Positions 3,909 to 28,583 of a stretch of 29,326 nt of DNA are shown here, piece after piece. Numbering within the stretch: position 1 is the first letter of the stretch; every line of letters begins with the position of its first letter. A program made the translations under genes and the position numbers. The notes beneath the pieces are model-generated. The model saw only the letters and a program-made list of their open reading frames with translations. It searched no databases and was not told where the DNA came from. Source of the DNA: a virus; the IMG/VR virus record IMGVR_UViG_3300037882_000675, positions 1 through 29,326 of that record, one strand, 5' to 3'.

Positions 3909-4616
3909 ATGTCACGCGGGGTAGTATTATCAACGGTTCGAGCCAAACTCAAAGCAGAGTTGCGGGATGCGCAAGAGACCAACACAGTTCTTGACACCGA
4001 ATACAACTATGCACTGGCTAATAAACAGCAAGACCTCGCCAACGCCTACGATTGGCCGTTCTTGCAGGACCGTTGGGACCTTGCTGTTTCTACTAGGTAT
4101 GTTGCCCTCCCCACCTCTAACATTCGTGGCATCTCGGCTACGATTAACTTTGAGCGGCCAGTGTTGGCTGAGGTTTTGTTTGGCACCCATTATCGTGTTT
4201 TGGATTATGGTATTGGTTCCACCCAATACAATGCCATTCACGAGGGTGTGACACAGGACCCAGTTCAACGCTGGTCGCTTGATACTAATATTGGTGATTC
4301 CAGTAACCCTAATGAGGCTGAGTTTTGGCCAACCCCTGCCACCTCACAAACAGTTCGCTTCACGGGCCAACGAGCAGTGAGGACATTTAGTGCCGACGCT
4401 GACCTTAGTGACCTCGATGACCTCTTGCTTGTTTATATGGTTGCATATGAGTATCTTTTCCAACGCCAACAAAACAACGCCGAAGCTATGTTGCAAAAGG
4501 CCAACCAACACCTTGTTAAACTCCGCGCCTCCTATTCCGTCAACGACGACCGGCTTGTGCTTGGTCGTTCTGATACCTTTGACCGTAAAAATGTAAAACT
4601 CATTGCAGTTCGATAA
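3909..4616 (+). CDS. Head-tail adaptor (gp4/gp6-like connector)
   Basis: 235 residues. Adaptors bind below the portal ring and carry the nozzle. The N-terminus is a short helix (LSTVRAKLKAEL), then helices with the pattern LANKQQDLANAYDWPFLQDRW followed by beta segments starting YVALPTSN. That 'helix, W-P-F-L, then Y-x-x-L-P' pattern is characteristic of phage adaptor proteins. The C-terminal third has long helices (DDLLLVYMVAYEYLFQRQQNNAEAM and on) rich in Gln and Ala that would pack against the portal stem. GGAG lies 8 bases before the start. It sits in the standard order portal, scaffold, capsid, adaptor, although two extra genes intervene between capsid and adaptor. Confidence 0.7.
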   Translation: MSRGVVLSTVRAKLKAELRDAQETNTVLDTEYNYALANKQQDLANAYDWPFLQDRWDLAVSTRYVALPTSNIRGISATINFERPVLAEVLFGTHYRVLDYGIGSTQYNAIHEGVTQDPVQRWSLDTNIGDSSNPNEAEFWPTPATSQTVRFTGQRAVRTFSADADLSDLDDLLLVYMVAYEYLFQRQQNNAEAMLQKANQHLVKLRASYSVNDDRLVLGRSDTFDRKNVKLIAVR

Positions 4617-4618
4617 CT

Positions 4619-5329
4619 ATGAACATTTCACTAGCAGCCGCTGACCTTACCAAATGGGTAGCATTTGGACCAGTTAAGGTCGATAAACTTTTTGGACGAA
4701 ACGATAGTGGGGCGGAGCTTTATTTGCAACTCCATCAAAGCCCTGTTGTGCTGGCCAACGACGTGCCCGTGCCGAATGGTGTTTTGACTGTCCCCACGGG
4801 AGAGTGGTTTGATTGGTTCTTCGAGCCGGGAATTCAGTTGAGCGAACTAACCATTGCCGTTTCAACAACTAAGCTTCTCTACACCGCTCCCGGCGCTGGG
4901 CTTGGTGTAACCGCAACCTGTTTGTTTTCCTCTGATTTTGCGGTTTCTAACTTCTCTGGTTTGGCCGTTGCAGGTGACCTCACAACCAATGTCGCATCCT
5001 TAGCTGTTTGGGCTGACGTAGTAGGACCAAAGCGCCTTTATCGTTTGGATGTTTTGAACAACGGCAATGACTCCTACCCCTATATCTCTGCTCGAAACTC
5101 CCCAGCGGCCAAGAATTCAGCCCAAAATAGGTTGGAGACAGTTCTAAGCGGCAACCTGAAATCGTATTTCTTTGGTGTTGGTGGGTATAGTCCAGTTGAG
5201 CAGTATCAGAGTGGAACTTCCACCTTAACGGCTGATGGCTGCACGGTGGTTTTCTCTGCCTCGCCCGATATTGCCACTACAACCCTTGATGCAACGGCTG
5301 ACAAAAGCGTGCGTGCGATTTATGCTTAA
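4619..5329 (+). CDS. Tail-associated beta-rich structural protein
   Basis: 236 residues, no signal peptide. The N-terminal half contains AELYLQLHQSPVVL, then a turn, then FFEPGIQLSELTIAVSTT. This succession ('L-Y-L-Q-L-H' followed by 'G-I-x-x-S/L-x-I-A-x-S-T-T') is a small beta domain frequent in phage tail and fibre genes. The second half begins again with a beta strand (KRLYRLDVLNNGND) and may be a second, diverged copy of the same fold. It starts 2 bases after the adaptor stop, without a Shine-Dalgarno, and its last codons overlap the start of the beta-helix gene by 8 bases. A role as tail collar or fibre-attachment protein is inference from position only. Confidence 0.6.
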   Translation: MNISLAAADLTKWVAFGPVKVDKLFGRNDSGAELYLQLHQSPVVLANDVPVPNGVLTVPTGEWFDWFFEPGIQLSELTIAVSTTKLLYTAPGAGLGVTATCLFSSDFAVSNFSGLAVAGDLTTNVASLAVWADVVGPKRLYRLDVLNNGNDSYPYISARNSPAAKNSAQNRLETVLSGNLKSYFFGVGGYSPVEQYQSGTSTLTADGCTVVFSASPDIATTTLDATADKSVRAIYA

Positions 5330-7004
5330 TATTTTTATTCTTCTTTTGTTGGCCTGTGTTAGCGGGTTTGCTGCAACTGGTGGTGGTGGAGGTGGCGCGC
5401 CGAATGTTGTAACCATCTCGCCGGGCGCAAACCTTGCCACTTACAACTTCCAATCTTCCAACGCCTACTATTTCGGCAAGGGCAATTACACGCCGGGAAC
5501 GCCCTCGCTGTTGCAGTCAAACTTGAACCGATCTACGACGTTCACGGGCATCCTCAAAAGTAATCTGTCGCAAGTGTCCTTCATTGGCGTGCCGGGACAG
5601 ACCGTCATCAACGGGCGCGGATCGCTGGGTGACTCGGCTTTGTTTCTCCAATGCACGGGGCTTTACTTCTACGGCATCACCTTTCTCGGCTACACGAATC
5701 ACAACATCTTGCAACTGCCAGAAATGGGGACCGGCACCAATACGGGCGCGTATCTCGGAGCCATCGTGAACTTGGCCGCGTGTGAGGACATCGTTTTCGA
5801 GAACTGTGTCTTTGACGGCTCTTGGGATCACGGACTGCTGGACTTCGCCGCGAATAACTCGGGCTACCCTTATGGCAACATCATGTCCAAACGGGTGAAG
5901 CTGATTAATTGCCGCTACCGCGACATCGGCGGCTTTCGGCGTGCCGGTGGAGCGAATACCAGTTGGGACGGAACATGCGTCATCCCCGGTGCGTGGGATG
6001 CGGATGGCTGTGTCTTTGAAGACTCGCTCCGGGCGTGGGAACCCTACGACGAGGGCGACCCGGGGGAAAAACGATTCTTCGGAGCGACGCTCCGCAATTC
6101 CACAATCCGCAATATGAACGTCGGCGGGGTGCTGACGGCAGGCACCACGAACGCGGTTGATTCGAGGGTCATCAACTGCGCGTTCACCAATCAGCTTGGC
6201 TGGACCTACCACGGGAGCAACTACACCGTGGCCGATGAACATGGCGCGATTGACTGGCGTGCGTCGGATGGACTGATTGCCATCGGCAACACGATTGACG
6301 GCGTTTGGGGCAGTGGAATCTTCGGCTACGGATTCACGCGGGGCGAGATTCGCAACAACACCATCCGGCACCTGACGAACGTGGCTGGCGTCAATGCGAT
6401 TGGCATCAAATTGCAGGGGACTACCAACGTCATCGTCAGCGGGAACACCATCCTCGCGCCGAAGACCTACGGCATGTATCTCTACGGGACCAAGGATTCG
6501 GTGGTGGAAAACAACGACATCCGCGACCCCGGACTCGGAACGGGCATCTTGATTGCCACGTTCGCGCCTTTCACTGCCTCGAATAATTTCATCCGCAACA
6601 ACTTCATCAAGGCGACGACTGGAATTAGCGACCAGCTTGGAGGGCTGCTACCGCAATACATCTTCAACAACGAGATCGTCGCCACCACGAAAATTTCCAA
6701 CCTGTCCGGCGACAATATGCAGGTGGAAGGACCGCCACGAGTTTGGAACTACACCAACGATTTCCCTTCGATTGCAGCTGGCGGGAGCTTCAGGACGAAC
6801 TTCCCGGCACCGGGAGCGCGCACCAACGACTTCGGCTATCTCATGACGCCGGACCAATTCTTCCGCCTCGGCACAAACGTCTTTCCCTACGGATGGGCTT
6901 CCAATGACACTTTCTGGATTTGGGTGCAGAACGTCGGCCCAGCGGCGTCAGACCCCGGAAGCGTGAGGTTCAAGGGCATGGTTAAACAGGTTGAGGCGTA
7001 TTGA
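5322..7004 (+). CDS. Right-handed beta-helix (pectate-lyase-like) protein with signal peptide
   Basis: 560 residues. I chose the ATG at 5322: it starts MLNIFILLLLACVSGFAAT, a clear signal-peptide or anchor sequence, while the in-frame ATG at 5235 lies inside the previous gene. After a Gly linker come parallel beta-helix rungs, most regular at residues ~330-470, with repeated 'V/I-x-x-N-x-I' patterns such as VIVSGNTI, SVVENNDI and FIRNNFI. The last ~85 residues (from about VWNYTND) form a separate small domain whose 'W-x-x-N-D-T-x-W-I-W-V-Q-N' pattern resembles C-terminal domains of phage fibres. The fold suits a polysaccharide lyase, depolymerase or tailspike; no catalytic residues can be assigned. 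GC content jumps just after the Gly linker (about 5390) and stays high, so most of the gene looks imported. The stop overlaps the next ATG as TGATG. Confidence 0.75.
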   Translation: MLNIFILLLLACVSGFAATGGGGGGAPNVVTISPGANLATYNFQSSNAYYFGKGNYTPGTPSLLQSNLNRSTTFTGILKSNLSQVSFIGVPGQTVINGRGSLGDSALFLQCTGLYFYGITFLGYTNHNILQLPEMGTGTNTGAYLGAIVNLAACEDIVFENCVFDGSWDHGLLDFAANNSGYPYGNIMSKRVKLINCRYRDIGGFRRAGGANTSWDGTCVIPGAWDADGCVFEDSLRAWEPYDEGDPGEKRFFGATLRNSTIRNMNVGGVLTAGTTNAVDSRVINCAFTNQLGWTYHGSNYTVADEHGAIDWRASDGLIAIGNTIDGVWGSGIFGYGFTRGEIRNNTIRHLTNVAGVNAIGIKLQGTTNVIVSGNTILAPKTYGMYLYGTKDSVVENNDIRDPGLGTGILIATFAPFTASNNFIRNNFIKATTGISDQLGGLLPQYIFNNEIVATTKISNLSGDNMQVEGPPRVWNYTNDFPSIAAGGSFRTNFPAPGARTNDFGYLMTPDQFFRLGTNVFPYGWASNDTFWIWVQNVGPAASDPGSVRFKGMVKQVEAY

Positions 7005-7507
7005 TGAAAACCCTCCTGACCATTCTGGTGCTCTGCGTCTCCGCGTCTTTGCGGTTATACGCCACGCCGCCGCTGCCAGTCGCGGCCATCACAACCACCA
7101 AGCAACTCGCATGGGGACCGTCCACCACGCCCAACGTCCGGTATCGGCTTTACCATTCCACCAATGACGCGACCTGGCACACCAACTACCTGACCACGGC
7201 GACGAACTACACGGTGACGGTGCAGGCCGGTTCAACCAACTGGTTCATGGTGAAAGCCGTGAACGCGGACGGCATCGAGAGCGACCCGAGCAATGTCTAT
7301 GAGCAACCCATCCAACCCAAGCCCGCGCCCGCTGGTCCATTGCAGGTTGTTCCCATAACAACTAGTCTTGAAACTCGGATACCGGGTGGCGAATGGATTG
7401 AAGTAAAAACCTTCACAGCCAATGTAATTGTAGAATCCGAACCTGGACGACTTTTTCGCAGTAAGCTAAACATCGGCCAGCCTCAAGAGTTGGTCAAACT
7501 CCGTTAA
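7004..7507 (+). CDS. Exported fibronectin type III protein
   Basis: 167 residues. The ATG at 7004 overlaps the previous stop (TGATG), implying translational coupling; a TTG one codon upstream is less likely. MKTLLTILVLCVSASLRLYA is a signal peptide with cleavage near YATPP. Residues ~25-105 make one Fn3 domain: LAWGPSTTPNVRYRLYHST, NYTVTVQAGSTNWFMVKAVNADGIESDPSNV. That ending is typical of bacterial Fn3 domains that bind carbohydrate or act as spacers in secreted enzymes. A Pro-rich linker (QPKPAPAG) follows, then ~55 residues of unknown fold. GC drops to phage-typical values at about 7340, inside this linker, so the gene looks chimeric. Likely partner of the beta-helix protein. Confidence 0.7.
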   Translation: MKTLLTILVLCVSASLRLYATPPLPVAAITTTKQLAWGPSTTPNVRYRLYHSTNDATWHTNYLTTATNYTVTVQAGSTNWFMVKAVNADGIESDPSNVYEQPIQPKPAPAGPLQVVPITTSLETRIPGGEWIEVKTFTANVIVESEPGRLFRSKLNIGQPQELVKLR

Positions 7508-7540
7508 TTAACCAAAAACAACAAGGTAACAGGAAAATGA

Positions 7541-7819
7541 ATGAGCAATCTTCGGCTGAGTTTCAAGGAATGGCTGCACCAACTCTGGGATGCAGCAGTG
7601 CAGGGGGGAGCCAACGCCGCCCTCGCAGCAATGGGACTGGCAGGAGCCAACTCCTTGGGAGTGGCAGTCCAGCCCTTGGACTACAAACAAACGGGGGCAA
7701 TTTTTGTGGCGGGGGGAGTGGTGAAGATTCTCGAATTTCTCCGAACAAAACCATCACCGGACTTGGATTCATCCGAGGATGGTTCAAACACAGAATCCAC
7801 TACAACAGGAAAACAGTAA
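7541..7819 (+). CDS. Holin-like small membrane protein
   Basis: 92 residues. Holins permeabilise the inner membrane at lysis. An amphipathic N-terminus (LSFKEWLHQLWDAAVQGG) is followed by two hydrophobic stretches, about residues 22-43 (ANAALAAMGLAGANSLGVAV) and 50-66 (TGAIFVAGGVVKILEFL), and a hydrophilic C-terminus rich in Ser, Thr and Asp. Length and topology suit a holin, and the layout 'Ala-rich segment, QPLDYKQTG, second segment, LRTKPSP' resembles small proteins seen in lysis regions of related phages. I chose the ATG at 7541 with AGGA 8 bases upstream; a second ATG at 7537 is in another frame. No endolysin is adjacent, which weakens the call. The stop overlaps the next start as TAATG. 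Confidence 0.55.
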   Translation: MSNLRLSFKEWLHQLWDAAVQGGANAALAAMGLAGANSLGVAVQPLDYKQTGAIFVAGGVVKILEFLRTKPSPDLDSSEDGSNTESTTTGKQ

Positions 7820-8319
7820 TGAAATGGTTGCTTCGATTGATTGGAACGATTGGTTTTGCCCTTGCTATGTTGCTGGCTCGAAAAGCTCCAGCAGATGATC
7901 TTTTGGGTAAGCTCACGGTGGCTCCGTTCGCCTCTTTGAAGGGCGCGGAGATTACCGGTGACAACACCCTTGGGGCGGGTCTTGATGCTGGTCTTGGTGT
8001 GAATGACTTTGTTTCAATTCACATTGCCAACATAACGCTTGAGTTGAATGGTTGGCGTTCCAGCGTGGTGGATGAGACTGAAGCCTATGGCCGGGCTGAT
8101 TTTAGCCCGCTCAAGGACATATCGTTTGTTCTATATGGCAAAGGTGGAGCCACTCGTAATTGGAATAACGACGCTTGGGCGTTGGGCGTTGGCGTTGGTG
8201 CCCAATACAGCTTCACAAAAAATGTTGGTATTGGGGCTGACTACACCATCAATGCTTGGTTCAATGGTCCTGAAGATAAAAGTTCTTTGGCCCGTGCCTT
8301 TTTCCAACTAAGCTTCTAA
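7819..8319 (+). CDS. Outer-membrane beta-barrel protein with signal peptide
   Basis: 166 residues. I start it at 7819 (TAATG overlap with the holin-like gene, AGGA 8 bases upstream); the longer frame from 7537 only mirrors the holin gene. The first 29 residues are a signal peptide (MKWLLRLIGTIGFALAMLLARKAPADD). The rest is a run of alternating amphipathic strands with Gly turns: LGAGLDAGLGVNDFVSIHIANITLEL, DISFVLYGKGGATRNW, ALGVGVGAQYSFTKNVGIGADYTINAWF, and it ends LARAFFQLSF. A terminal Phe is the signal read by the BAM machinery, and the size fits an 8-strand barrel like OmpA-N, Ail or lambda Lom. Likely inserted in the host outer membrane, perhaps to alter the surface or block superinfection (inference). 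Confidence 0.75.
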   Translation: MKWLLRLIGTIGFALAMLLARKAPADDLLGKLTVAPFASLKGAEITGDNTLGAGLDAGLGVNDFVSIHIANITLELNGWRSSVVDETEAYGRADFSPLKDISFVLYGKGGATRNWNNDAWALGVGVGAQYSFTKNVGIGADYTINAWFNGPEDKSSLARAFFQLSF

Positions 8320-8320
8320 C

Positions 8321-8638
8321 ATGCGTTACCTACTCTTAGCTCAAGTTGCTCCAAGTGCAACAACTGATACCGAGCTTATTTCGGGTAATAAGCAGGACTA
8401 TCAGCGGGCTAAGTTTTTGGTAATCTGTAACCGTGGCGGCACGAATACCACCTTTCGTGTCCGCCACGCTAAAGCTAATGCGGCAGCGAGTAATGAGCAG
8501 TATTGGTTTTATGATACCCCGATTCTGGCGAATGACTCTTTGACGTTGGCGGTCGACGCGGGCATTGAGAGCTACGATTCGGTGTTTGTTTATGCTGGTA
8601 ATGCAAACCTTTCCTTCAACATCTACGGCGAGGTATGA
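8321..8638 (+). CDS. Small virion protein of fibre/tail type
   Basis: 105 residues, all-beta. It begins MRYLLLAQVAPSATTDTELI and contains VICNRGGTNTTFRVRHAKA, YWFYDTPI, and ends DSVFVYAGNANLSFNIYGEV. This series ('C-N-R-G', 'Y-D-x-P-I', 'V-x-V-Y-A-x-x-A-N-L-S-F-N-x-x-G') recurs as a short protein beside tail-fibre genes in many phages, probably forming a small trimeric or ring structure. It starts one base after the beta-barrel stop and overlaps the next gene by 4 bases (ATGA). Exact role unknown. Confidence 0.65.
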   Translation: MRYLLLAQVAPSATTDTELISGNKQDYQRAKFLVICNRGGTNTTFRVRHAKANAAASNEQYWFYDTPILANDSLTLAVDAGIESYDSVFVYAGNANLSFNIYGEV

Positions 8639-14850: not shown

Positions 14851-15774
14851 ATGGCTGATTATTATACACCTTGGGGTGAAGCGAGTCAAGGGTTTGACAG
14901 GTTGGGCAGCGCGGCTGGGAATGTGCTTTTGCAGTTGGCACAGAATCGGGCTGGTATGGCAAGGGCAGGGTATGAGTATGATTTGAACCGTCAGAAGTTG
15001 GAGATGGAAAGGGAGCAGAACCGTGAGAGGGGCGCGCTGTATAAGGCACAGAGTGCCCTTGCTCAAGCCGACGAAGCTTTGACAAAGAAGAAGGCTGATG
15101 AGATTCAGGTTGGACAGGACTTGGCTTCTTCTTTTGGAACTACGATTGAGAATTTGGTCAAGGCTCAACAAGGCGTTACACCTTTGCATGCACCGAGCTT
15201 GGAAGCAATCGCGGCTGGTCAGGCAGGACAGATGGCCGGGGCTGGGTTGAGGTTTGCTCCACAAAATTTATCGCAGCTTGCGAGCTTTGGTGATCCACGC
15301 TTGCGCGCGCTAATGGCAACTGACACAAGAATTCCCGCTTCGGTTAATGTTAATGAGATACCATTGAACGCAGCTAGTGGACAACCGATGAACTTTGGCA
15401 CCTTGGCTACTCCGCCGGGATATACGTTGACTGATAGAGCAACTGGTGCGCAGACTGTTACACAAGATAGGCAACCGAATGAGGGGGCTTTTGGTGGGAT
15501 TGTTGGGCCTGTGTTTAATGACGCGGCGAAGTTTCAGGCATTGATTGCTCAGATGCAGAGTGATGGTGAGGAGGTTCCTGCTGAGTTGCAATCGCAGGCA
15601 AACATTGCTAATCAGTTAAAGGGCTTGGTTACACAAGGCTTGACACAGAGGTTGCAGAAGGGACAGACCAATGCTCCTGCAAGTGGCGGTCCGGCCGTTG
15701 GAGAGGTACGAAAGGGTTATAACTTTAAGGGCGGCAATCCTGCGGACAAGAACAATTGGGAAAAGGTTCAATAA
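14851..15774 (+). CDS. Internal virion / ejection protein (3)
   Basis: 307 residues. GGAG is 6 bases before the chosen ATG at 14851; an earlier in-frame ATG at 14839 overlaps the preceding gene. The N-terminal ~100 residues are a long helix or coiled coil: LGSAAGNVLLQLAQNRAGMA, then LNRQKLEMEREQNRERGALY and QADEALTKKKADEI. The middle is Ala/Pro/Gly-rich, the C-terminal third is again helical and Gln-rich (about 220-265), and the end is KGGNPADKNNWEKVQ, basic and polar. This fits a T7 gp15-like core protein that carries the giant partner. It is 2 bases from the giant gene and is almost certainly co-translated with it. Confidence 0.5.
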   Translation: MADYYTPWGEASQGFDRLGSAAGNVLLQLAQNRAGMARAGYEYDLNRQKLEMEREQNRERGALYKAQSALAQADEALTKKKADEIQVGQDLASSFGTTIENLVKAQQGVTPLHAPSLEAIAAGQAGQMAGAGLRFAPQNLSQLASFGDPRLRALMATDTRIPASVNVNEIPLNAASGQPMNFGTLATPPGYTLTDRATGAQTVTQDRQPNEGAFGGIVGPVFNDAAKFQALIAQMQSDGEEVPAELQSQANIANQLKGLVTQGLTQRLQKGQTNAPASGGPAVGEVRKGYNFKGGNPADKNNWEKVQ

Positions 15775-15776
15775 TT

Positions 15777-18700
15777 ATGGCTGACTTTCCTTGGGAAGAT
15801 TTTCAAACTAACAGCACGGCCACTGTGGAGAAGGGACCGTGGGAGGATTTCGCCACGCCGAAGGTTAAGAAAACTCGTGCTCAGGTTACAAAAGAGGTTG
15901 AAGCGGCACAGGCGGCGAGACCAGTTGAGCAGATGTCTACCTTGGATAAGGTGGCTGACGCGGCTTATTGGCCAACCTATGTGGCGAGTAAGATGGACCC
16001 GGTGTCGGCGATTCTTAGTGCAGCGTCGCCGAATAATCCTGACCTCATTCACGCTCCAACCATCCCGGCTGAGCTGGTTAAAGAAGCGTTGAAGTATAGC
16101 ATGATTGCGCCCAACCGGCCAGATAGTACAATGGCTGGTGTGCAGAACTTTACTGCGGGAATGGTGTCGGGAATGTCTAGTCCTCATGGGTTGGCTGGGC
16201 TAATGAGCGGTGGAATTAATAGGGCACTACCTGCGGCGACATTTATTCCGCCAATGGTTAGTTCTATTCCACAGACAACGGAACAGTTGTTGCAAGCGCA
16301 GAATCCAGCACAGGCGACAGAGGGTGGGTTGAATCTTTTGAGTTCGCTTGTGTTTCCTTTGTTAATGGCGAAGCACGCGGAGCAGCCGAGAACTGGACAG
16401 GGTGCGCGACCGTCGGATTTTGGTCCGTATATTATTGAACCCGATGTCTTGCCGCCAGCCCCACCGAGGCAGGTAGCTCCGGGTAGAAGGTTGGGCCAAG
16501 GGGAACCTTTGACTATTGATGTTGAAGGACCGACACAGATTCCATTGACTAGTGCGAGCACACTTGCGGAGAGGAATAATCCACAGCCGTTTGGACAGGT
16601 TATTAGGTCACAGGAGCCGGTTGATCCGGCAACGTATCGCTTGGGACGTGAGAGGGAACCAATGCAAGTTCCACAGCCTGAGGACCTTCGCACGGTGGTT
16701 AGACAGAGCGTTGAAGAAGCGATGGGAAGGTTGATTAGTAATGAAAAGAGGCCGTCGCAGGAAGCTCCTGTTTTGCTTGGTGGACAACAAACACAAGCCC
16801 CGATGGTTTACGGACCTCGGCCAGTGCCGTTGGATGTGAAGGTTGAGCCGGGACAGGCATTCGTCCCTCGTGAACGTGAGAGCCAATTTCCACCAGCCGG
16901 GCCTATGCCATATAAGCCGGGTGAAGTGCTTAGTCAAAGTGAATTAGCTACAAAAGATTCTGGCGTGCCGTCTAGAAGGCTGGCTGCCGAATTACAAGAC
17001 CAAGAATCTCGTTTAGCGACTAAACAGGACCAGCCAGCGGCTTTGCCTGTTGAGCCAGTGGCAGAGCAGAAGCCCGTTCCTTTTGTGTATAAAGGGATTC
17101 AACCGGGCGTGCCGGAAGCTGGAATTCCTGACTTCCATTTGTATAACATGACTGAGACGGTTGGGAAACTGGCTAAGGGGAGCACGGTTAGTGAGATGAG
17201 CTTGAAGGCGGCTGGGTTTGAGATACCAGAGGGAATGCCTAAGAGTGGGGGAATGAAGGTTAAGGAAGCGCAAGAAAAAGCCGCCAAGCAGAGGGGTGAA
17301 ACAGGTGCCGTTTTTCCAGAAGGAAATGAGAAAAGGTTTTCCAAAAAACTAGAAGACGAGATTAACTACATGCGTCAGACGTTTGATGAAGACGCCGACC
17401 CTGGTGAGACGCTTTCTCGTAACGATGCGATACGAAGACTACTGGAAGACTACACCGATAAAAGTCACTGGTCAAGTGAGTTCAAAAAAGAGCTTGAGGA
17501 CTATCAAATTTCCACTGGAATTGTAAAACCATATACGGCAAAACAGTTAGAATCAATTACTGTTACTAAAGGTAAGAAATACGACTTTCGTCGTGGAGAT
17601 ATTTTTTATCGTTTTGAGGGTTGGGGGCATCTGAAAGAACCGTTTGACGGTGGCCCAGTTCAGGGCATGAAGCTTAAAGAAGCAGTGGAAAAGAACAAGG
17701 AAGCGGGTTCGATTCTTAACCCTTTTGAAGGATTGCGGGAAAGGTTCAAGAAAAAGGAAGAAGAACAACGTGGAGATTTTGCTCTTGATGGTCCACGCTT
17801 GGTGCTTGACCCTAAAGCTGGTGGGTTTACTAATCCGACCAAAGAGGTTGATAGTGCGCAGTTGTGGAATAGGGTTAGGAATAGGATTAGTAAGACTGAG
17901 GTGGAGGGGTATGAGAAGAGTGGAGTTGCGGAGAAGATTCGTAACAGTGGAAAGATTAGTCCCGAGAAGGCTGCTGAGTTGATGCAGGAAGGTGGGGAAA
18001 GGGTGGAGACTGCTGTCTATGGGATGGAAGGGAAGGTGAGTGAATTCAAAAAAGAATTCGACGACCTTACTCATTCTTGGTATGATACGCTTGATAATCG
18101 TAGAAAGAATGCGATTAACTTTATCAAAGGTCGCGCGGAACTAGGTTCGATTGATCCTTTTGATGGCTTGCCATTGTCTGTTAAGTCAGAGATTACTGGG
18201 ATTGACCAGACAAAGCTTAAACGTTACGTTGAATTAGCAAGCATAACAAGTAAGGAACGTGTTACTGGCCCCCGCGCAACTTCCGCCTACGACACAGTCT
18301 CTGCATTCTCCACAAAGGAACCAATGCCAGAGTGGACGAAGACGAAGAGCGGGAAGAATGTGCAGAGAGTGGATGTGGTGATACCACAAGAATATAAAGA
18401 GGGGTATAAAGTAATAGATAAAGATGGTAAACAGTATGGTCAATACCCTGACCATGAAATAGCCGTAGAAAACAAAGAAAGGCTAGAGCAAGAATATCCA
18501 GAACTAAAACCGTGGAGAACTGCATATGGCGGAACTGAAACCTTCCCAATAGCTAAATGGAAGCAAGACAACCTCCACGAAAACCTCCCCAACACTCTCG
18601 GATGGGCGATGATACAGTATAAGGATGGACCTAAGGGGGAGAAGATAGCGGTGATAGCTGAGGCACAGAGTAGGTGGGGGCAGTCTAATAGAGAACGTAT

Positions 18701-21700
18701 AAAGCAATCTAGTGAACTACTCAAACGACTGGACTCTGGAGAAGCTGATGCTAGTGGGTATAAACGTGATATGGTAGAAAAGCAAGCTAAGGATGACCAC
18801 CCCCTCCTCCGCGACTACAACCGTCTAATCCTCAAAGCCGCGATTGACCAAGCCCGTAAAGAGGGTGCTACGCATATTGTGGTGAGTGATGCGGAGAGTG
18901 CAATGATGACGGAGGGGCATGATATAAATGTAAGTGGCTACAGTGTGCTAGAACATGGTAGTGATGTTATACCCTTCAAAGACCTAGCAACCATGAACGA
19001 ATACATAAATACTCATGGATATAAACGCTATGGTGTAGAAATAAATGAAGGAAGACATAGTGGGCCAATTTACCAAAGAGAAGATGGTAAACTGTATCAA
19101 ATGCGCGTAAGTCCGAACAACGAAAAAGGTGTAGGGCTGCAAGAAATAACGAAGCTACAAGAAAATAGACCTGCTCAAGAAAGTGGTATGCGTCTCAACT
19201 ACGACACCATCCTTCCAAAGATTGCAGAAGAACTTACAGGAGTTAAGGGAGAAAGAGTGAGTTTAGGGGAGCATAAGAATGCGTTTGACGCACCGCATGG
19301 GCGAGATAGGCGTAACGAAATTGAACAAATGGTAGAGCGTGGTGACATATCGCGTCAAACTGGTGATAGACTAATAAAAGAAGAAACAGCACAAAAACTC
19401 CGCTCCAACCTCATCTTTCGCAATTCTGACGGCACACCAAAGACGGATGTGTCTGGTTTGATGTATCCACTAGACAAAGTGCCAGCGCAGAAAGCGTCTC
19501 TCTATGAGAAGGATAGGCCGGAAACTAGGGGAACAAAGCTCTACGGTGGAGCGTTCTTTTTTGATCCTGATTTTTGGCGTGATACGTTTAGCAAGGGGAA
19601 GGGTGGGAAGCCCGAACGTGTAGTGGGTGGATTGCAGAAGCTCGATACCTACGAGAAAGAATTTGCCCGAGCGAATAAGGTTCAAGGGGCTGGGAAGTTG
19701 GGCAAGACAATTGGTGGCTTGCTCGACCCTCGCCGGAAAGCAGTTGGGAATGAGGTTGCTCAAGCCCTTGTAGCGTGGCACTCGCAGGTTGATACGGGTA
19801 GGAAGATGGCTACCTTGTGGGCTGAAAGCCGTAAACGACTTGGTGATATTGTGGCCGACGAGAAGGATGGTAAGATTGCCCTTGCTGATGGCAGCCGTGG
19901 GTTCATGGGCGACGTGTTTGAGCGTGAGATTGCCAAGCCGGGTTCACAACCTTTGACCCCGCAGCAGAAGCAGGCGGTTGAGTTTGCAAAGCGGGCACTT
20001 AGGGATACGGGGGTTGAGTTGACCAAGGAAAATGTTAAAGGGTTTCTTGAGTCTGATAAGGATTCGATTGACCTTAGTGAACCATATTTTCCTCGTCCGG
20101 CCATTGGGAAGGTTGATAAGAAGATGGAAGCCATGCCGGGTAAACGGGCAATTGGCTCGGAGAGGTTTTTTCAAAAGGGAAGGAAGTTTCCGACTGAACA
20201 GATGGGCTATGAAAGTGGGATTAGGTATGAGCCGTCCTTCTATGGTAGGGTTTCGGATTACTTGCAGAACTATTATAGGGCTATTGCTGACGAGAGGTTG
20301 GCTACGCACCTTGAAAAGCTGAGTGAGAGCGAACACAAGTTCATGGAGAACGCGTTGACCTACCATCCGGCTTTCCGGGGACGTTACTTCTCAGACGCTG
20401 GTTATCAAGCGATCAATAAAAGTTTGGATAGACCATCCCACCAATTTGAAAAGATTGCTCGTGGGGTGCAGAACTATAAGAAGGTTAAGTTCACAGCGGA
20501 TGTTAGTTATTTGTTTAATCAGCTGTTGCCAACCTTGGTTATGAACCCTGTTGGTTGGGGCACAGCAGCCAAGCAAGGGTTCAAGGCGTTAGTTAATGAG
20601 AATGCTTTGTCGGAGTATCTTGCTAAACCTGTGAACCTTAAAGCGGCACAACGGATTGTGCAAAATGGTGGCGGGATTGGGAACCTGTGGGAGTTCATTG
20701 GCGGGGCTGAACGCGAGGGAATCGTGGATAAGATTCGACCAATCAAGGCTAGTGGTCGAGCGATGCAGGTTGCCCTTGACACAGCGAAGATTGAACTGTA
20801 TAAGTCGCTTGAACCTGTAATGAAGAAACAAGGTTGGAGCGAGGCTGAGCTTGTTGAGGCGATTGGGAATGCTGTTTATTCGGCACCGGCTAAGGGAATT
20901 GGTGTTAGCGATACGAGGGCTATCATTGAGAAGTTGGCTTTCAATGCGCCAAACTATCTGAGGGCTACCGCTAACATTCTTGCGAACCTTGGAACAGAAG
21001 GGTTGAAAAACAACCCCGCTGGCTATGTGGCAAGGCGCGCTGTGGTTGGACTCGGAGCGGCCATCATGATACAGTTTGGTGTCCTGTATATGTCGATGGT
21101 TAAGCTGGGATTGATGGATGAAGATGAGATGAAAGATAGGTTGAATCCGACTAAGCCACAGTTTTTGAAGCTACCTGTTAAGGTTCCAATGGGGAAAGAG
21201 GGTGGGCTGGAAGGTAGCGCTGATGATAAGGTGGTGGAGATGAGCTATGGTAATATCTTCTTGAGCCTCGCTCGTGCGGCTGGGGCGATGGGGGCGATTG
21301 CGACTGGAGAAAAGGAAGGAGCTTTGCTGGGTGGGGATAATCCGGGCATCCGGTTTGTGTCGGCTAGGTTGAGTCCTTGGTGGAATGTGGTGCAGAAGAT
21401 TATTACAGGGGAGAACTATAAGGGGCAGAAGAAACCTGCGCTTGAGTTAATCTCTGAAGAGTTGCTGCCGATTGTTTTGAATCCGGTGTTGGAGGAAGGG
21501 GTGACTAGTAAGGCTGGAGCGGTTGCTGCGGTGGGGAGCGGGATTGGGTTTAGCACTTCAATCGAAAGCCGTGGAGCTAGGCAGAAGAGGTTGGAGAAGG
21601 AGTATGCGCAGCAGGTTTATAAGGCTCCGATTGACAAGCTCAACGTTACGCAAAGAAGGAAGGCTGGTGCAATGGCGGAACTAGCACTAGCTGGGGAGGA

Positions 21701-22064
21701 AAAGGAAGGCCCGAGCCTTTATTCCCTTGAGGCACCAAAGAAACGTGCTGAGAAGGTTATGGGGTTGCTTAGTCCTGAGAGCCGGGCAATGTTGGAGAAT
21801 GCAAAGTTGGGAGTGCCAAACATTATCGCTTCGCAAACAAAGAACGCAAAGCCTTTGAAGTTAAACAAGGAGGAACAAGTATTTTTCCTTGAAGCTTATG
21901 CTAAAGAGTTGGATAAGCGATTACAGAACGTGAAGCGAAGCGGGCTGAGTCTAAACGAAAAAAGCTTTGAGAATATCACTCAAAGCGTTGGACAGGCTAC
22001 ATGGACTAAGACTAAGGCTATGATCAACACCCGCGCAAAAGGAGAAGTAAGCTCACAAAGATAA
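15777..22064 (+). CDS. Giant multidomain internal virion / polyvalent ejection protein
   Basis: 2095 residues from the ATG at 15777. The N-terminus has two PWEDF motifs (residues 5-9 and 21-25), then a helical region, then a Pro/Gln-rich linker to about 460. Residues ~870-1200 carry a domain found in large phage proteins: IAVIAEAQSRWGQ (in relatives 'E-x-Q-S-D-W'), later HPLLRDYNRLILKAAIDQA and THIVVSDAESAM, and at about 1137 MRLNYDTILPKI ('Y-D-x-x-L-P'). Its activity is not known to me. The last ~550 residues are helical with hydrophobic stretches (RRAVVGLGAAIMIQFGVLYM near 1755) and the ending RFVSARLSPWWNVVQKIITG, a pattern typical of giant ejection proteins. Residues 412-417 (RLATKQ) are encoded by palindrome copy 3. 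ATA codons cluster in the 870-1200 domain. It is the last late gene, before the terminator. Confidence 0.7.
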   Translation: MADFPWEDFQTNSTATVEKGPWEDFATPKVKKTRAQVTKEVEAAQAARPVEQMSTLDKVADAAYWPTYVASKMDPVSAILSAASPNNPDLIHAPTIPAELVKEALKYSMIAPNRPDSTMAGVQNFTAGMVSGMSSPHGLAGLMSGGINRALPAATFIPPMVSSIPQTTEQLLQAQNPAQATEGGLNLLSSLVFPLLMAKHAEQPRTGQGARPSDFGPYIIEPDVLPPAPPRQVAPGRRLGQGEPLTIDVEGPTQIPLTSASTLAERNNPQPFGQVIRSQEPVDPATYRLGREREPMQVPQPEDLRTVVRQSVEEAMGRLISNEKRPSQEAPVLLGGQQTQAPMVYGPRPVPLDVKVEPGQAFVPRERESQFPPAGPMPYKPGEVLSQSELATKDSGVPSRRLAAELQDQESRLATKQDQPAALPVEPVAEQKPVPFVYKGIQPGVPEAGIPDFHLYNMTETVGKLAKGSTVSEMSLKAAGFEIPEGMPKSGGMKVKEAQEKAAKQRGETGAVFPEGNEKRFSKKLEDEINYMRQTFDEDADPGETLSRNDAIRRLLEDYTDKSHWSSEFKKELEDYQISTGIVKPYTAKQLESITVTKGKKYDFRRGDIFYRFEGWGHLKEPFDGGPVQGMKLKEAVEKNKEAGSILNPFEGLRERFKKKEEEQRGDFALDGPRLVLDPKAGGFTNPTKEVDSAQLWNRVRNRISKTEVEGYEKSGVAEKIRNSGKISPEKAAELMQEGGERVETAVYGMEGKVSEFKKEFDDLTHSWYDTLDNRRKNAINFIKGRAELGSIDPFDGLPLSVKSEITGIDQTKLKRYVELASITSKERVTGPRATSAYDTVSAFSTKEPMPEWTKTKSGKNVQRVDVVIPQEYKEGYKVIDKDGKQYGQYPDHEIAVENKERLEQEYPELKPWRTAYGGTETFPIAKWKQDNLHENLPNTLGWAMIQYKDGPKGEKIAVIAEAQSRWGQSNRERIKQSSELLKRLDSGEADASGYKRDMVEKQAKDDHPLLRDYNRLILKAAIDQARKEGATHIVVSDAESAMMTEGHDINVSGYSVLEHGSDVIPFKDLATMNEYINTHGYKRYGVEINEGRHSGPIYQREDGKLYQMRVSPNNEKGVGLQEITKLQENRPAQESGMRLNYDTILPKIAEELTGVKGERVSLGEHKNAFDAPHGRDRRNEIEQMVERGDISRQTGDRLIKEETAQKLRSNLIFRNSDGTPKTDVSGLMYPLDKVPAQKASLYEKDRPETRGTKLYGGAFFFDPDFWRDTFSKGKGGKPERVVGGLQKLDTYEKEFARANKVQGAGKLGKTIGGLLDPRRKAVGNEVAQALVAWHSQVDTGRKMATLWAESRKRLGDIVADEKDGKIALADGSRGFMGDVFEREIAKPGSQPLTPQQKQAVEFAKRALRDTGVELTKENVKGFLESDKDSIDLSEPYFPRPAIGKVDKKMEAMPGKRAIGSERFFQKGRKFPTEQMGYESGIRYEPSFYGRVSDYLQNYYRAIADERLATHLEKLSESEHKFMENALTYHPAFRGRYFSDAGYQAINKSLDRPSHQFEKIARGVQNYKKVKFTADVSYLFNQLLPTLVMNPVGWGTAAKQGFKALVNENALSEYLAKPVNLKAAQRIVQNGGGIGNLWEFIGGAEREGIVDKIRPIKASGRAMQVALDTAKIELYKSLEPVMKKQGWSEAELVEAIGNAVYSAPAKGIGVSDTRAIIEKLAFNAPNYLRATANILANLGTEGLKNNPAGYVARRAVVGLGAAIMIQFGVLYMSMVKLGLMDEDEMKDRLNPTKPQFLKLPVKVPMGKEGGLEGSADDKVVEMSYGNIFLSLARAAGAMGAIATGEKEGALLGGDNPGIRFVSARLSPWWNVVQKIITGENYKGQKKPALELISEELLPIVLNPVLEEGVTSKAGAVAAVGSGIGFSTSIESRGARQKRLEKEYAQQVYKAPIDKLNVTQRRKAGAMAELALAGEEKEGPSLYSLEAPKKRAEKVMGLLSPESRAMLENAKLGVPNIIASQTKNAKPLKLNKEEQVFFLEAYAKELDKRLQNVKRSGLSLNEKSFENITQSVGQATWTKTKAMINTRAKGEVSSQR
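17010..17026. repeat. Dispersed 17-bp palindrome, copy 3 (inside the giant gene)
   Basis: CGTTTAGCGACTAAACA, arms GTTTAG/CTAAAC perfect, first base changed from T to C, followed by GGAC. It encodes R-L-A-T-K-Q in frame in a low-complexity linker of the giant protein. Confidence 0.8.
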
Positions 22065-23309: not shown

Positions 23310-23492
23310 TTAGGAACCTTTTACTTCAACGATGTTTGTGAGTTGGTGAGGGAAAGCGGTGTATTCGATTTTGGTGAAGAGACTGCGAACACGGTAACGA
23401 GTGGGTGGGTCGGGATAGAGGAAAAGGATTTCGACGATAGCTTCGCCGTTGGGCTGTTCCTTTGGACCGAGTCGGAGGGTTGCACGGGTCAT
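23310..23492 (-). CDS. Small hypothetical protein between polymerase and ATPase
   Basis: 60 residues. I start it at 23492, whose ATG overlaps the polymerase stop as ATGA; a longer start at 23528 would run inside the polymerase gene. The sequence is basic, then beta-prone: MTRATLRLGPKEQPNGE, AIVEILFLYPD, RYRVRSLFTKIEYTAF. It could be a small accessory or DNA-binding protein made by coupled translation with the polymerase. No family is recognised. Confidence 0.5.
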   Translation of the reverse strand: MTRATLRLGPKEQPNGEAIVEILFLYPDPPTRYRVRSLFTKIEYTAFPHQLTNIVEVKGS

Positions 23493-26248
23493 AGGGTTCC
23501 TTTCTTGTGGGTGGAGTCCATGGACCATGCGGTCCCGTATGCGCCGTCGTAGGGGATGGTTAGTTTTTGGTTGGCGACTATCATTGGGTTATTAAAGTAG
23601 GATTTAATTTTAGCAGTAGCCCAAGCGGTATCTTCGATTCTGAATTGCATAAGGAGTTCGTCGTGGACTTGGTGGAGAGGTTCGATTCGGAGGTAGGTTC
23701 GGCCAGCAACTGGTGTAGTTCCTCGATTGATGAGGGCCAATCCGGCTGGTGATAAACAAGGGTCTGTGGTTCTGTTTTCTAGGTCTGTCCAAAGTTTGTT
23801 GGCTGCGAGTAGGGTAGCATATGTTGTAACAACTTGAGGTAAATGAGCAAGGGCTTGACCGAGAACTTCGGTTTTCCGACCAAAGAATTTACGGATATGG
23901 CCATTAGGAGCGACTAGTTGAGCGGGGTAGGGTTGTTTGGCAAGGTAGTTCTGCATCCAGTCTTGCCATAGGCGGGCACGATAACGAACGAGGATGCATT
24001 GTTGGAAGGTTTTGGATTGAGCAGACGACAGGACAACGGCCCCTTCACTTTGGATGAAGACATTACGAGCAAGGGAGACTGGTCCCATGGTGTAGAAGGT
24101 TCCCCAAATACCGATTTTGGAAACGAAGTATTGCCACATGTCTTTCTTGACACACTGGACAGCTTCGGCTAGAGCGGCTCGATTGTTGGCTACTTTGTGG
24201 TAAGCATCCGCTCCGTGGATTAGGATGTAGGCGACCACCTGAGCGGGCTTGATTCCATACAGCAAGTCATCAAGCATTGTCCGGTCACCCAGCATAGCCA
24301 TATAAGCACCGATGGTCCAACCATCTGCACCCTTGAGGTCGGCTTTGGCGAGGTAGCAACCGGGGTCGGCAACAAGCAGGTCCCTCATCCCTTGACGAAC
24401 AGGGTGGTTCTCGTCAAAGATTTCCCAATCGTCGGGGACGGTCTGCATGTTTGCGCCGACGCGGTTTTTACCGCCGACATAAATCATGGATTTGCTACTG
24501 GTGACGCGACCGGTCTCGGAGCCAACGAGATTGTAGGAACAGTGCATCCGGCCTTTGTAGGACCGGATAGCAAGCATCTGAGCGCGGGTTCGGAAACGGG
24601 ACAACTCTAACGCTGCTTGCAAGGCTGGGTGGTCGGAGTCCTTTGCAAGGTGAAGGAGAGCGTTGTAGTCGGTGGTTGGACGCATCTCCTTTGTCTTGAG
24701 GTCTTTCTTGTATTGAACCGGGAGACCAAGGTGCTTGTATAGAAAGTCCTTAAAGCCCGGTCCTTTGGTGTTCATGGATGCACCAACCAAGGCAGAGATT
24801 TCTCCCTTGAGTTGAGGGGTTAGCTCGGTTGTTTCTTGGAGTTTTTTGAGGATGGAGAAGTAGTCTTCGGCGTAGTCTTTTTTAGGGATTGTCTGGTCTT
24901 TCTTGTAGCAGCAGGATTGCTGTATCCTTGCAATGATAGCAGGAACTCCGCTACCAAAATCAACTGGGTCAGGGAGGGCACCGACCTTGGAGGCTTCTTG
25001 GTCGAGCAAGGCTTGCTGGGTATAGACATGGTCTTGCATTTCTGCGAGACGTTTGTTGGCTTCTTCTTGGTCATATTTGATTCCTCGTAGTTCCATGTAT
25101 AGGAGAACGTTGAGGGCGACGAGGTTGAATTGGTAGTGTTCTTTTTGCGGAGGGGTGAGGCAGCCATCGAGGGTTTGGTTTATCTCGTAGGTAACGGCTG
25201 CGTCTTTGGCGCAGTATTTGTAGTAGGTTTCTTGGTCCTCGGTCTTGCGCTCGAACTTATAGAAGGGCTCGTCGGTATAGATGGAGCACTGGAAGCCGAG
25301 GGATTTTTCCATCTCGCAGTAGAGGGACCAGTGTTTAATCATTGTGTCGTCCGCTGAGTTGCGGATGACAAGATTGTGTGCCCACTGCAAAACAAAACGG
25401 TCGTAGAGACCGTTCTGCCAGACCTTTTTAATATGTGGTGAGGCTAGGATAAATGCTACTCGTCGCCAGAGTTCAGCCTCTTGGTCAATTGGCCAATAGC
25501 TATCTCCGTTGAGAAGAGTAAAAGGAACAACAAAGCCAGTTGCTTTTGAAGTGGCGAATCCAATGCAAGAAACGTCTCGAACACCACCTTCAATGTCACA
25601 GCTAACTGGAGCGCGCGAATTGACAATTTGGTCAAGAGCAACAATAGTATTCGTATAGGGAAGGGTGGCATAGAGTTGGCGCAGAGGTAAGCGGAGGTCG
25701 GGGAAGGTTGATTGGTGCTTGGCTCGACGAAGGTCGAGAGATAGTAGGGGGAAGCCGTCCCATTGACGGAGAACGAAGGATGGGTCAAGGATGCCTAGAC
25801 ATTTGAGGTTGGCAAAAGGAGAGTCTTGTTTGCCAATAAAGAGCGACCCTCTCCAGTCGAAGATAGAGCCGTAGCCGTGGGCTGCTTTGAATGGTTCAGA
25901 GCCAAGGAGCAAACAAAGGTTTGGTTTGAATTGAGCTAGGTCAAGGGAAAGTTGGGCATGGTCGGTTGAGTCGGGAGATTGGGTTAGGTTAGCAACGAGA
26001 CACTGCATCCTCGGGATGCCGTGTTTGGATAGGAGTTGGTCCAACAGGCGACCGGCCATGCCGCTGAAGGGTTTGCCTATGGAGATGTCGTCCTCGGTTG
26101 GGTGAGAACCGATGATGGCAAGACGGAAGGTGGAGGGCGGGATGGTTGGGTGTTGGTTGGGGACAACCTTGCTGGAGAGGTCGATGATGGCACTGGCTGG
26201 TTGGTCAAGAGGGTCGGAGTCGAAGGCAGAGAATGCGTCGCGGGGCAT
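23489..26248 (-). CDS. Family A DNA polymerase with 3'-5' exonuclease and N-terminal UDG-like domain
   Basis: 919 residues. Residues ~40-180 resemble family 4/5 uracil-DNA glycosylases: IIGSHPTEDDISIGKPFSG aligns with 'G-E-A-P-G-x-x-E-D-x-x-G-x-P-F-x-G' and ILDPSFVLRQ with 'H-P-x-x-L-L-R', but key positions are changed. The exonuclease has Exo I D218-I-E220, Exo II N279/D283, and Exo III Y345/D349. The polymerase has TGRVTSS with NMQTVP (579-605), motif A at D637, motif B with K711 and Y719, and motif C VHDE (861-864). It replicates the phage genome with proofreading. UDG-polymerase fusions are known from SPO1-like phages. Start codon 2 bases after the preceding stop; stop overlaps the next ATG. 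No inteins or frameshifts. Confidence 0.88.
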   Translation of the reverse strand: MPRDAFSAFDSDPLDQPASAIIDLSSKVVPNQHPTIPPSTFRLAIIGSHPTEDDISIGKPFSGMAGRLLDQLLSKHGIPRMQCLVANLTQSPDSTDHAQLSLDLAQFKPNLCLLLGSEPFKAAHGYGSIFDWRGSLFIGKQDSPFANLKCLGILDPSFVLRQWDGFPLLSLDLRRAKHQSTFPDLRLPLRQLYATLPYTNTIVALDQIVNSRAPVSCDIEGGVRDVSCIGFATSKATGFVVPFTLLNGDSYWPIDQEAELWRRVAFILASPHIKKVWQNGLYDRFVLQWAHNLVIRNSADDTMIKHWSLYCEMEKSLGFQCSIYTDEPFYKFERKTEDQETYYKYCAKDAAVTYEINQTLDGCLTPPQKEHYQFNLVALNVLLYMELRGIKYDQEEANKRLAEMQDHVYTQQALLDQEASKVGALPDPVDFGSGVPAIIARIQQSCCYKKDQTIPKKDYAEDYFSILKKLQETTELTPQLKGEISALVGASMNTKGPGFKDFLYKHLGLPVQYKKDLKTKEMRPTTDYNALLHLAKDSDHPALQAALELSRFRTRAQMLAIRSYKGRMHCSYNLVGSETGRVTSSKSMIYVGGKNRVGANMQTVPDDWEIFDENHPVRQGMRDLLVADPGCYLAKADLKGADGWTIGAYMAMLGDRTMLDDLLYGIKPAQVVAYILIHGADAYHKVANNRAALAEAVQCVKKDMWQYFVSKIGIWGTFYTMGPVSLARNVFIQSEGAVVLSSAQSKTFQQCILVRYRARLWQDWMQNYLAKQPYPAQLVAPNGHIRKFFGRKTEVLGQALAHLPQVVTTYATLLAANKLWTDLENRTTDPCLSPAGLALINRGTTPVAGRTYLRIEPLHQVHDELLMQFRIEDTAWATAKIKSYFNNPMIVANQKLTIPYDGAYGTAWSMDSTHKKGTL

Positions 26249-26786: not shown

Positions 26787-27070
26787 GAAATTCGTTTGAA
26801 GGTTCGGATGGCCGTTTTATCGTAGCCAATTATGGTTGGCCTGAAAGAGATAGTGGTAAAACTTTCTGTTGTCGGGTTGTCGAAGTTGGACCAGGCAATA
26901 GGCGGACGTGGCCTAGGCACTCTACATTCACCTAGTGTCCAATAATACGGAGAAAAGGAACTAGCGTAAACATAATCTCCAACCTTTGCTTCTAACGGTT
27001 CATATCCAATGTCAGGTAAATTGGAGAGATGAGTCAAGCTTAAGATAGTGGTGCTGTTTGACGTTCTCAT
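26783..27070 (-). CDS. Small hypothetical protein overlapping the ParB-methyltransferase gene
   Basis: 95 residues from the ATG at 27070, which lies inside the ParB-methyltransferase gene and overlaps it by 59 bases in another frame. A TTG at 27037 would cut the overlap to 26 bases and is a fair alternative. The part outside the overlap (EPLEAKVGDYVYASSF, PYYWTLGECRVPRP) looks like a small beta-barrel domain and is clearly coding-like, while the open frame further upstream is only a shadow. It ends with ATGA coupling to the membrane-protein gene. Function unknown. Confidence 0.45.
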   Translation of the reverse strand: MRTSNSTTILSLTHLSNLPDIGYEPLEAKVGDYVYASSFSPYYWTLGECRVPRPRPPIAWSNFDNPTTESFTTISFRPTIIGYDKTAIRTFKRIS

Positions 27071-28547
27071 AGAGGGCAGCGTAGTGGTTAGGGTCAAGCT
27101 CAACACCGAAAGCGTTGTAGCCCATACGAAGGAAGGAGATGACGCCGGAGCCACGGCCAGCGAAAGGGTCGAGGATTGATTGACCGGGCAATGCAACTGA
27201 GCGAGCAAGGAACTCCCAGATGGCGAATGGTTTAGAAAAGGGATGACCGAGGTCGTTCTGTAACTCATCACGGCCAGCGGTGATGATGGAGGTTTGAGGT
27301 TGAGACTGGATGGTTGCGCCTTTTTTACGGCAGATCATAGCGATTTCAAAATCCTTGGTGAAGTTGTAACCAATGCAGTTGTTCATGCATTGGTAGGTTT
27401 TGGACCAAATGATTGGCCACTTCTGCACAGCGAAGCCAGCCTCGGTTGCGAGTTCAAACATGAATTGCCATTGAGATTGGTCGCACCAAGTGATGAGGAA
27501 ACTGTGATCTTTTAGGCAATGGAATCCTGCGGAGAAGAACTTCTCCATTAAGGATTCGTTATAGGAAACGTCGTGGAGGTCTTCAACAGTATCAATGTTC
27601 TTCATTCCGCCGTGGATGTTGGATTGGTTGAGCATTTCCAGGTCGATACCGTAGGGGATGTCGGTGATAATGTGGTCGAACCGCTCTTGATTTTCCAGCA
27701 TGAAGTCGATACAGTCGCGGTTATGGAGGCGGCCTGATAGATGGATAACCTTTTGGCTCTGTTTAGCGGCTAAACGGGACTGATAATATTCGTCGAACTT
27801 ATCAGGTGGGTTGAGTGGGTTAGAGAGGTAACGGGTGCGGGCCTGCTCTTTTGCGTGGTCTAGGACATTGGCTTCAACACCGGGCAAAGAGGTTGGCGCG
27901 TTCTCGAATTCCTCTAGTCCGACTAGCTCTTCTTCAAAGATGGTCTCGCTTGATACATTGGCTTGCTGGCGTTTGAGAAGCTCGGCACGAAGCGCATCTT
28001 CTTCGTCACGCATTTGTAACCGGAGCGCGTCCGCGAGAGAACCACAGTTCCAGAAGCGAGCGGTCGGGAGGGGCTTTTTGTTTTCATCAAGTTCCTTTAG
28101 GAGTAGCTTTGCGATTTTGAGGTTGAAGTTAATGTTGGCCGCAGACTCGTTGAGCATCGCGCCGGTCTCGCGTTGGCCCCAACTCTGGGAGTCGATGGCT
28201 TTGAGTTGAACTTTCTTATCGTGGATTGTTTTGATGTTCAAACATTTCTCCTGCCACGTCATGTCCTTGCGTTGGATGTTCTCTTCGAGTTCGAGCATGA
28301 AGAGTTCATCTTCGGTGAGGGCAGAACGTTTGACCGCTTGGATGGTGGTCCAACCTAGCTTGGTTGCGGCAGCAAAGCGTCGGCCACCGGCGATGAGACG
28401 GTTGGAGTCGTCGAGCAGGATGGGTTGGATTTGGCCGAGTTTGGATAGACTGTCGCAAAGGGCATCAAGGTCACCATAGTCGAGTCGTTGACGGTCGATT
28501 ACTTTGATTTCGGCTAAGGGAATGGAGTGGAAGGTAGGAGTTGTCAT
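27012..28547 (-). CDS. ParB-domain / DNA methyltransferase fusion
   Basis: 511 residues from the ATG at 28547. Residues ~8-90 form a ParB/Srx-type domain: KVIDRQRLDYGDLDALCDSL, then LGQIQPILLD and LIAGGRRFAAA (ParB box). Residues ~120-150 (SQSWGQRETGAMLNESAANINF and following) look like the HTH found in chromosome-partition ParB. A charged linker leads to a methyltransferase with motif IV TDIPYG (295-300, in place of 'DPPY'), HPFSKP (435-440) and motif I DPFAGRGSG (460-468), an order as in beta-class N4/N6 enzymes. Such fusions in phages likely methylate phage DNA against host restriction. Residues 258-263 (RLAAKQ) are encoded by palindrome copy 4. A longer start at 28583 is unlikely because it would remove the candidate promoter. 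Confidence 0.8.
   Translation of the reverse strand: MTTPTFHSIPLAEIKVIDRQRLDYGDLDALCDSLSKLGQIQPILLDDSNRLIAGGRRFAAATKLGWTTIQAVKRSALTEDELFMLELEENIQRKDMTWQEKCLNIKTIHDKKVQLKAIDSQSWGQRETGAMLNESAANINFNLKIAKLLLKELDENKKPLPTARFWNCGSLADALRLQMRDEEDALRAELLKRQQANVSSETIFEEELVGLEEFENAPTSLPGVEANVLDHAKEQARTRYLSNPLNPPDKFDEYYQSRLAAKQSQKVIHLSGRLHNRDCIDFMLENQERFDHIITDIPYGIDLEMLNQSNIHGGMKNIDTVEDLHDVSYNESLMEKFFSAGFHCLKDHSFLITWCDQSQWQFMFELATEAGFAVQKWPIIWSKTYQCMNNCIGYNFTKDFEIAMICRKKGATIQSQPQTSIITAGRDELQNDLGHPFSKPFAIWEFLARSVALPGQSILDPFAGRGSGVISFLRMGYNAFGVELDPNHYAALYENVKQHHYLKLDSSLQFT
27760..27776. repeat. Dispersed 17-bp palindrome, copy 4 (inside the ParB-methyltransferase gene)
   Basis: TGTTTAGCGGCTAAACG, arms GTTTAG/CTAAAC perfect, last base changed, followed by GGACT on the plus strand. 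On the coding strand it encodes R-L-A-A-K-Q, nearly the same peptide as copy 3. Confidence 0.8.
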
Positions 28548-28554
28548 GCGAGAT

Positions 28555-28583
28555 AGGATAGGGGATTTTTGGCCGATTGCCAA
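28555..28583 (-). promoter_or_regulatory. Candidate sigma-70-type promoter for the ParB-methyltransferase gene
   Basis: On the minus strand, TTGGCA (28583-28578) is followed after 17 bases by TATCCT (28560-28555), a 5/6 and 4/6 match to the -35 and -10 boxes with ideal spacing. The ATG at 28547 lies 7 bases after the -10 box, so the transcript would be leaderless or nearly so. It sits in the only sizeable gap of the minus-strand block (28548-28675, 128 bases), where no gene is visible. Confidence 0.3.

Follow-up and report, generated by a model that had tools for sequence, protein, structure and literature searches.

A holin-like gene overlapping a likely outer-membrane beta-barrel gene: a possible lysis cassette in an uncultured podovirus-like phage

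The gene pair and its surroundings

What role may a small holin-like protein and a likely outer-membrane beta-barrel play when their genes overlap and are squeezed between genes of the tail-fibre type? This question is raised by positions 7541–8319 of the window, i.e. the whole IMG/VR record IMGVR_UViG_3300037882_000675 (29,326 bases), which is linear and partial, so that some genes may be missing from it. Its source is a tailed, uncultured phage that looks podovirus-like. The capsid protein is 36% identical to that of Microcystis phage Mae-Yong1326-1, the portal of the closest relative is P22-like, and relatives of the capsid were registered on just two bacterial contigs. Other parts of the window encode a DNA polymerase A (23489–26248, minus strand) with an N-terminal domain of the uracil-DNA-glycosylase superfamily (PF03167, 7.9e-11) and a 3'-5' exonuclease domain, as well as an N6/N4 DNA methyltransferase fused to a ParB N-terminal domain (27012–28583, minus strand). 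UDG and DNA_pol_A domains are also found in the record of locus L011, described below.

The holin-like gene occupies positions 7541–7819 and the barrel gene positions 7819–8319, both on the plus strand. The stop codon of the former (TAA, 7817–7819) and the start codon of the latter (ATG, 7819–7821) merge in a TAATG overlap (7817–7821, plus strand), and the coordinates, frames and overlap given for the pair by the initial annotation proved to be correct. Such an overlap suggests that translation of the two genes may be coupled. Also real is the leader AACAGGAAAA, resembling a ribosome-binding site, which precedes the holin-like gene (7528–7537, plus strand) and, being located inside this gene, the barrel gene (7804–7813, plus strand); the window has only these two exact copies, one per gene. 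However, the significance ascribed to its repetition was not borne out. In L002, the only close relative found in IMG/VR, AACAGGAAAA is missing ahead of both genes; the repeated leader is therefore not conserved, and its role as a shared regulatory signal was ruled out. An ordinary ribosome-binding site, AGGA, lies about 7–8 nt from the start codon of either gene.

The upstream neighbour (7001–7507, plus strand) codes for an FN3-like protein with similarity to tail-fibre protein J, and the downstream one (8321–8638, plus strand), beginning 1 nt past the barrel gene, for a tail-fibre-like protein of 105 aa. The pair is tightly packed in a late operon. We also considered a moron with its own promoter and rejected this variant, since no promoter was found for the pair and there is no room for it.

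The same pair with the same TAATG overlap stands at the same place in L002. Identity between the window and L002 is 67% for the holin-like protein and 78% for the barrel, predicted loops included, and the dN/dS values (about 0.15 and 0.08, respectively, with synonymous sites near saturation) indicate purifying selection on both genes. Since the neighbouring FN3 fibre gene is only 31% identical between the two phages, the barrel does not track adsorption proteins. Between the FN3 and holin-like genes L002 additionally carries a gene for an 87-aa one-helix protein with CxxC pairs (5712–5975), which is absent from the window. Beyond this contig, the only viral one with direct homologues of the pair, tblastn searches of the phage collection (up to E 1 or 10) returned unrelated matches only for either gene, and no barrel homologues were found in genome contigs.

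A longer frame also runs through this region. It opens with an ATG at position 7537, 4 nt 5' of the holin start (the ATGAATGA start), and reads on across the holin-like gene as far as the barrel gene and through it (7537–8319, plus strand, 260 aa), remaining open in L002 too. We judged it to be a chance frame rather than a coding one: over the holin part the fused proteins of the window and L002 share 35% identity, the holin frame is under purifying selection, and 6–7% of protein-preserving codon permutations leave the fused frame open by chance.

Predicted properties of the two products

The upstream gene encodes 92 aa with two helices predicted by a low-confidence structure model (residues 3–38 and 48–69) and a hydrophilic C-terminal tail. 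The protein is weakly hydrophobic (the highest mean hydropathy over 19 residues is 1.33). No holin family was matched above the cut-off in Pfam (the best was PF16945, E 0.18), none was found in PHROGs or NCBIfam, and the fold search with its model gave noise. We therefore call it "holin-like" on account of its size, the two predicted helices, weak hydrophobicity and synteny.

The downstream product (166 aa) begins with Lys/Arg followed by a hydrophobic stretch ending in ...RKAPA|DD, and both the hydropathy maximum at residues 1–19 and the reading of the sequence point to a signal peptide of residues 1–25 (7819–7893, plus strand). Its strands have an alternating hydrophobic pattern, whose real level was matched by 50 of 2000 shuffled sequences (9 of 2000 for the L002 protein), and the last residue is Phe. 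A signal peptide, alternating strands and a terminal aromatic residue, all three features of outer-membrane beta-barrels, are therefore combined in one protein. The Pfam profile PF13505 (OMP_b-brl) matched it with E 9.5e-6, slightly below the curated cut-off; the two scores obtained in this test were 26.3 and 24.4 bits against the required 28.7 bits. Weak sequence matches in the PDB were mostly porins. The best BFVD match, obtained by Foldseek with the structure model described below, was a phage protein named "Outer membrane protein beta-barrel" (A0A6J7XB88, uncultured Caudovirales phage; E 1.7e-6, 36% identity over the full length), and the top matches in this database were outer-membrane barrels in general.

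The structure prediction that the initial annotation had proposed was performed with AlphaFold2 on the basis of two sequences and gave a poor model (pLDDT 38) with a signal helix and seven strands; residues 63–76 look like a possible eighth strand, by our own judgement of this low-confidence model. A Foldseek search with it against the PDB found mostly outer-membrane barrels (E 0.26 and above), with the PP7 coat protein also among the weak matches. Based on these data one can assume that the 166-aa protein is likely an outer-membrane beta-barrel. The expected barrel pattern and terminal Phe thus hold, but attribution to the Lom/Ail type does not, as the Ail_Lom profile gave no match to the protein in Pfam up to E 1.

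Counterparts in related phages

A four-sequence alignment of capsid proteins fetched 80 relative loci, many of which are fragments. HMMs of the window's two genes found nothing credible in relatives other than L002. Among the surveyed loci a barrel version of the cassette is present in the window, L002 and L010 only. The record of L010 (56% capsid identity) has a terminal direct repeat of 77 bp and that of L011 one of 124 bp, so both are probably complete. At the same place as in the window, L010 has genes for three products: a protein with one helix, a holin-like protein of 74 aa and a protein of 179 aa with a signal peptide and barrel character. The gene of the last overlaps the holin-like one by ATGA, and the whole cassette lies between spike/fibre genes and two "stabilisation" genes. 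A response-regulator receiver-domain gene (16252–16686) is located immediately upstream of it. The 92-aa protein of the window and the holin-like protein of L010 share a motif in register, with weak homology (hhalign E 0.026). No homology was detectable between the two barrels (hhalign probability <1%), so only their position and type suggest that they are the same part. As queries, the holin and barrel of L010 retrieved their own contig only.

In three other relatives the barrel position is taken by a lipoprotein. L009 carries, at the same place as L010, genes for a holin-like protein and a lipoprotein, preceded by one for a one-helix protein. In L011 the genes for a coiled-coil protein with an N-terminal helix, a holin and a lipoprotein all overlap, and the holin matches the curated family PF23987 (Phage_holin_10, 1.2e-9). 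L016 encodes a one-helix coiled-coil protein, an Amidase_2 endolysin (9.9e-15), a holin-like protein and a lipoprotein, the last two directly 3' of the amidase. The spacing from the holin-like gene to the lipoprotein gene in these three loci is −8 to +2 nt. Unlike the cassettes among the tail genes in the window, L009 and L010, those of L011 and L016 precede the terminase gene. The pairs of L009, L011 (with its holin of the Pam3 gp28 type) and L016 resemble that of the window in that a holin-like gene is followed by a gene for an exported envelope protein; they differ from it in having a lipoprotein instead of a barrel, with no detectable sequence similarity. Among other features of these records, the large terminase subunit of L016 (892 aa, 3988–6666) seemingly contains an intein-like insertion, and one protein encoded in the record of L011 (G003) bears an Acb2/Tad1 hairpin domain (PF24729, 1.5e-7) and may serve in counter-defence.

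The paired inner- and outer-membrane factor suggested from the start thus acquired a tie to lysis, as the pairing recurs in relatives, with an amidase beside one pair and a curated holin in another; the spanin-replacing part of that idea is still a matter of inference. As had been noted, the window shows no recognisable endolysin (Pfam and PHROGs on the main genes) and no recognisable canonical spanin. Lipobox scans found no lipoprotein resembling an o-spanin or u-spanin, their hits being confined to the N terminus of the tail spike and to short ORFs that lie out of frame within other genes, and the search for i-spanins gave just two small ORFs with an N-terminal TM segment, overlapping or opposite called genes. 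No endolysin was present among the Pfam and PHROGs matches listed for 83 proteins of the L009 and L010 records (at least 25 families, with 44 of the 83 proteins listed in full), nor in Pfam searches with 35 proteins of the L011 record. Since no endolysin was found beside the pair or in these long relative genomes, location alone is no proof of lysis. Some ORFs were left out of the endolysin search and giant proteins of 1500–2100 aa have no class, so a divergent endolysin may exist. The giant protein of the window (2102 aa, 15756–22064, plus strand) matched nothing credible in Pfam or NCBIfam, and tblastn against the phage collection gave no match to it; relatives have their 1500–2100-aa proteins at its place.

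Lysis cassette and competing explanations

Taken together, the data lead us to favour, tentatively and with somewhat less than even confidence, the view that the pair supplies both membrane components of a lysis cassette, one for the inner and one for the outer membrane, and that the barrel occupies the slot of the holin-linked lipoprotein found in relatives. In such a scheme the 92-aa protein, as a small holin, would permeabilise the inner membrane late in infection, and the 166-aa protein would be exported via Sec and inserted into the outer membrane as a barrel of roughly eight strands. There, acting as the outer-membrane partner at the position of the relatives' lipoprotein, it would weaken the outer membrane or link it to the inner one during lysis, and the tight stop/start overlap would hold both products in a fixed proportion. 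The barrel may in this way replace spanins or play a spanin-like role. A bolder version, in which lysis is spanin-free, an integral barrel, co-produced with the holin, breaks the outer membrane or unlocks it, and a single slot of the cassette accepts a lipoprotein or a barrel depending on the phage, seems to us doubtful.

Known surface proteins include small outer-membrane barrels of phages, for instance Lom of phage lambda, whose gene lies between J and stf. The barrel might accordingly be a late surface protein that blocks adsorption or DNA entry of further phages, or virion binding to debris, its adjacency to the holin being incidental. Many phage barrels in BFVD and the neighbouring tail-fibre and spike genes speak for it, and the window protein shares with the Lom/Ail family its size, signal peptide, barrel character and place between fibre-type genes. 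It differs from this family in lacking the profile match, in being paired with a holin-like gene and in showing no sign of lysogeny. Conservation of the barrel unlike that of the FN3 fibre gene, the lack of an own promoter together with the 1-nt gap to the next gene, the absence of integrase families among the Pfam matches listed for the long relatives, and the recurrence of the pairing in L010 all argue against a surface role. Surface exclusion, initially put on a par with lysis, is therefore less likely than a lysis role, and we regard the surface reading as a whole as unlikely.

Still lower we place an outer-membrane pore that alters permeability or envelope stress (uptake, sensitising of the envelope or timing of lysis) and is not needed for rupture of the outer membrane; the late operon agrees with it, as do the weak matches in sequence and fold to porins and small barrels, but the recurrent tight pairing with holin-like genes would remain unexplained. 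Least probable in our estimation is that the 166-aa protein forms no membrane barrel and belongs to the tail-fibre module as a beta protein that is either secreted or associated with the virion. Fibre genes on both sides, the low confidence of the model, the Pfam match below cut-off and the PP7 coat protein among fold matches fit this possibility; the signal peptide, C-terminal Phe, amphipathic strands of the barrel type and outer-membrane barrels at the top of the BFVD matches contradict it. As for the 92-aa protein, weak hydrophobicity and the lack of a holin family match would allow a regulator or anchor of the barrel, such as an antiholin or another small membrane protein. This is improbable given the position of its gene, which in relatives belongs to holin-like genes (the L011 one matching a curated holin family), and the motif that the protein shares in register with its L010 counterpart.

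If the lysis cassette is accepted as the working explanation, it differs from the known systems nearest to it. Two-component spanins (lambda Rz/Rz1; PMC6139136) similarly combine inner- and outer-membrane proteins encoded by overlapping or adjacent genes and perform the last step of lysis, as is proposed here. However, the barrel has no lipobox (KAPA|DD contains no Cys) typical for an o-spanin, and the 92-aa protein has two helices instead of the N-terminal TM segment and periplasmic coiled coil of an i-spanin; the pair looks like an integral barrel in the outer membrane combined with a holin in the inner one. With unimolecular spanins (T1 gp11; PMC6139136) the barrel shares a beta-rich nature, a likely envelope location and proximity to probable lysis genes; judging from sequence and hydropathy it has neither a lipoprotein signal nor a C-terminal transmembrane helix. 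Neither protein is of the disruptin type; disruptins are short amphipathic peptides of cationic character whose target is the outer membrane (PMC12819732).

In about 13% of the surveyed genomes of phages infecting Gram-negative bacteria no spanin can be recognised (PMC6139136). It has been called an open question whether spanin-less phages rely on disruptins or on another kind of outer-membrane disruptor (PMC12819732). Judging from BFVD matches, phage-encoded outer-membrane barrels are common and mostly have no assigned use, and no description of a holin-linked one was found in the open-licence literature. Because the pair occupies the place where related phages have a holin and an outer-membrane lipoprotein, the barrel may represent a novel type of lysis factor acting on the outer membrane. 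Linked to a holin-like gene in three phages of one group, and standing where a relative has its lipoprotein, it is a testable candidate for an outer-membrane disruptor.
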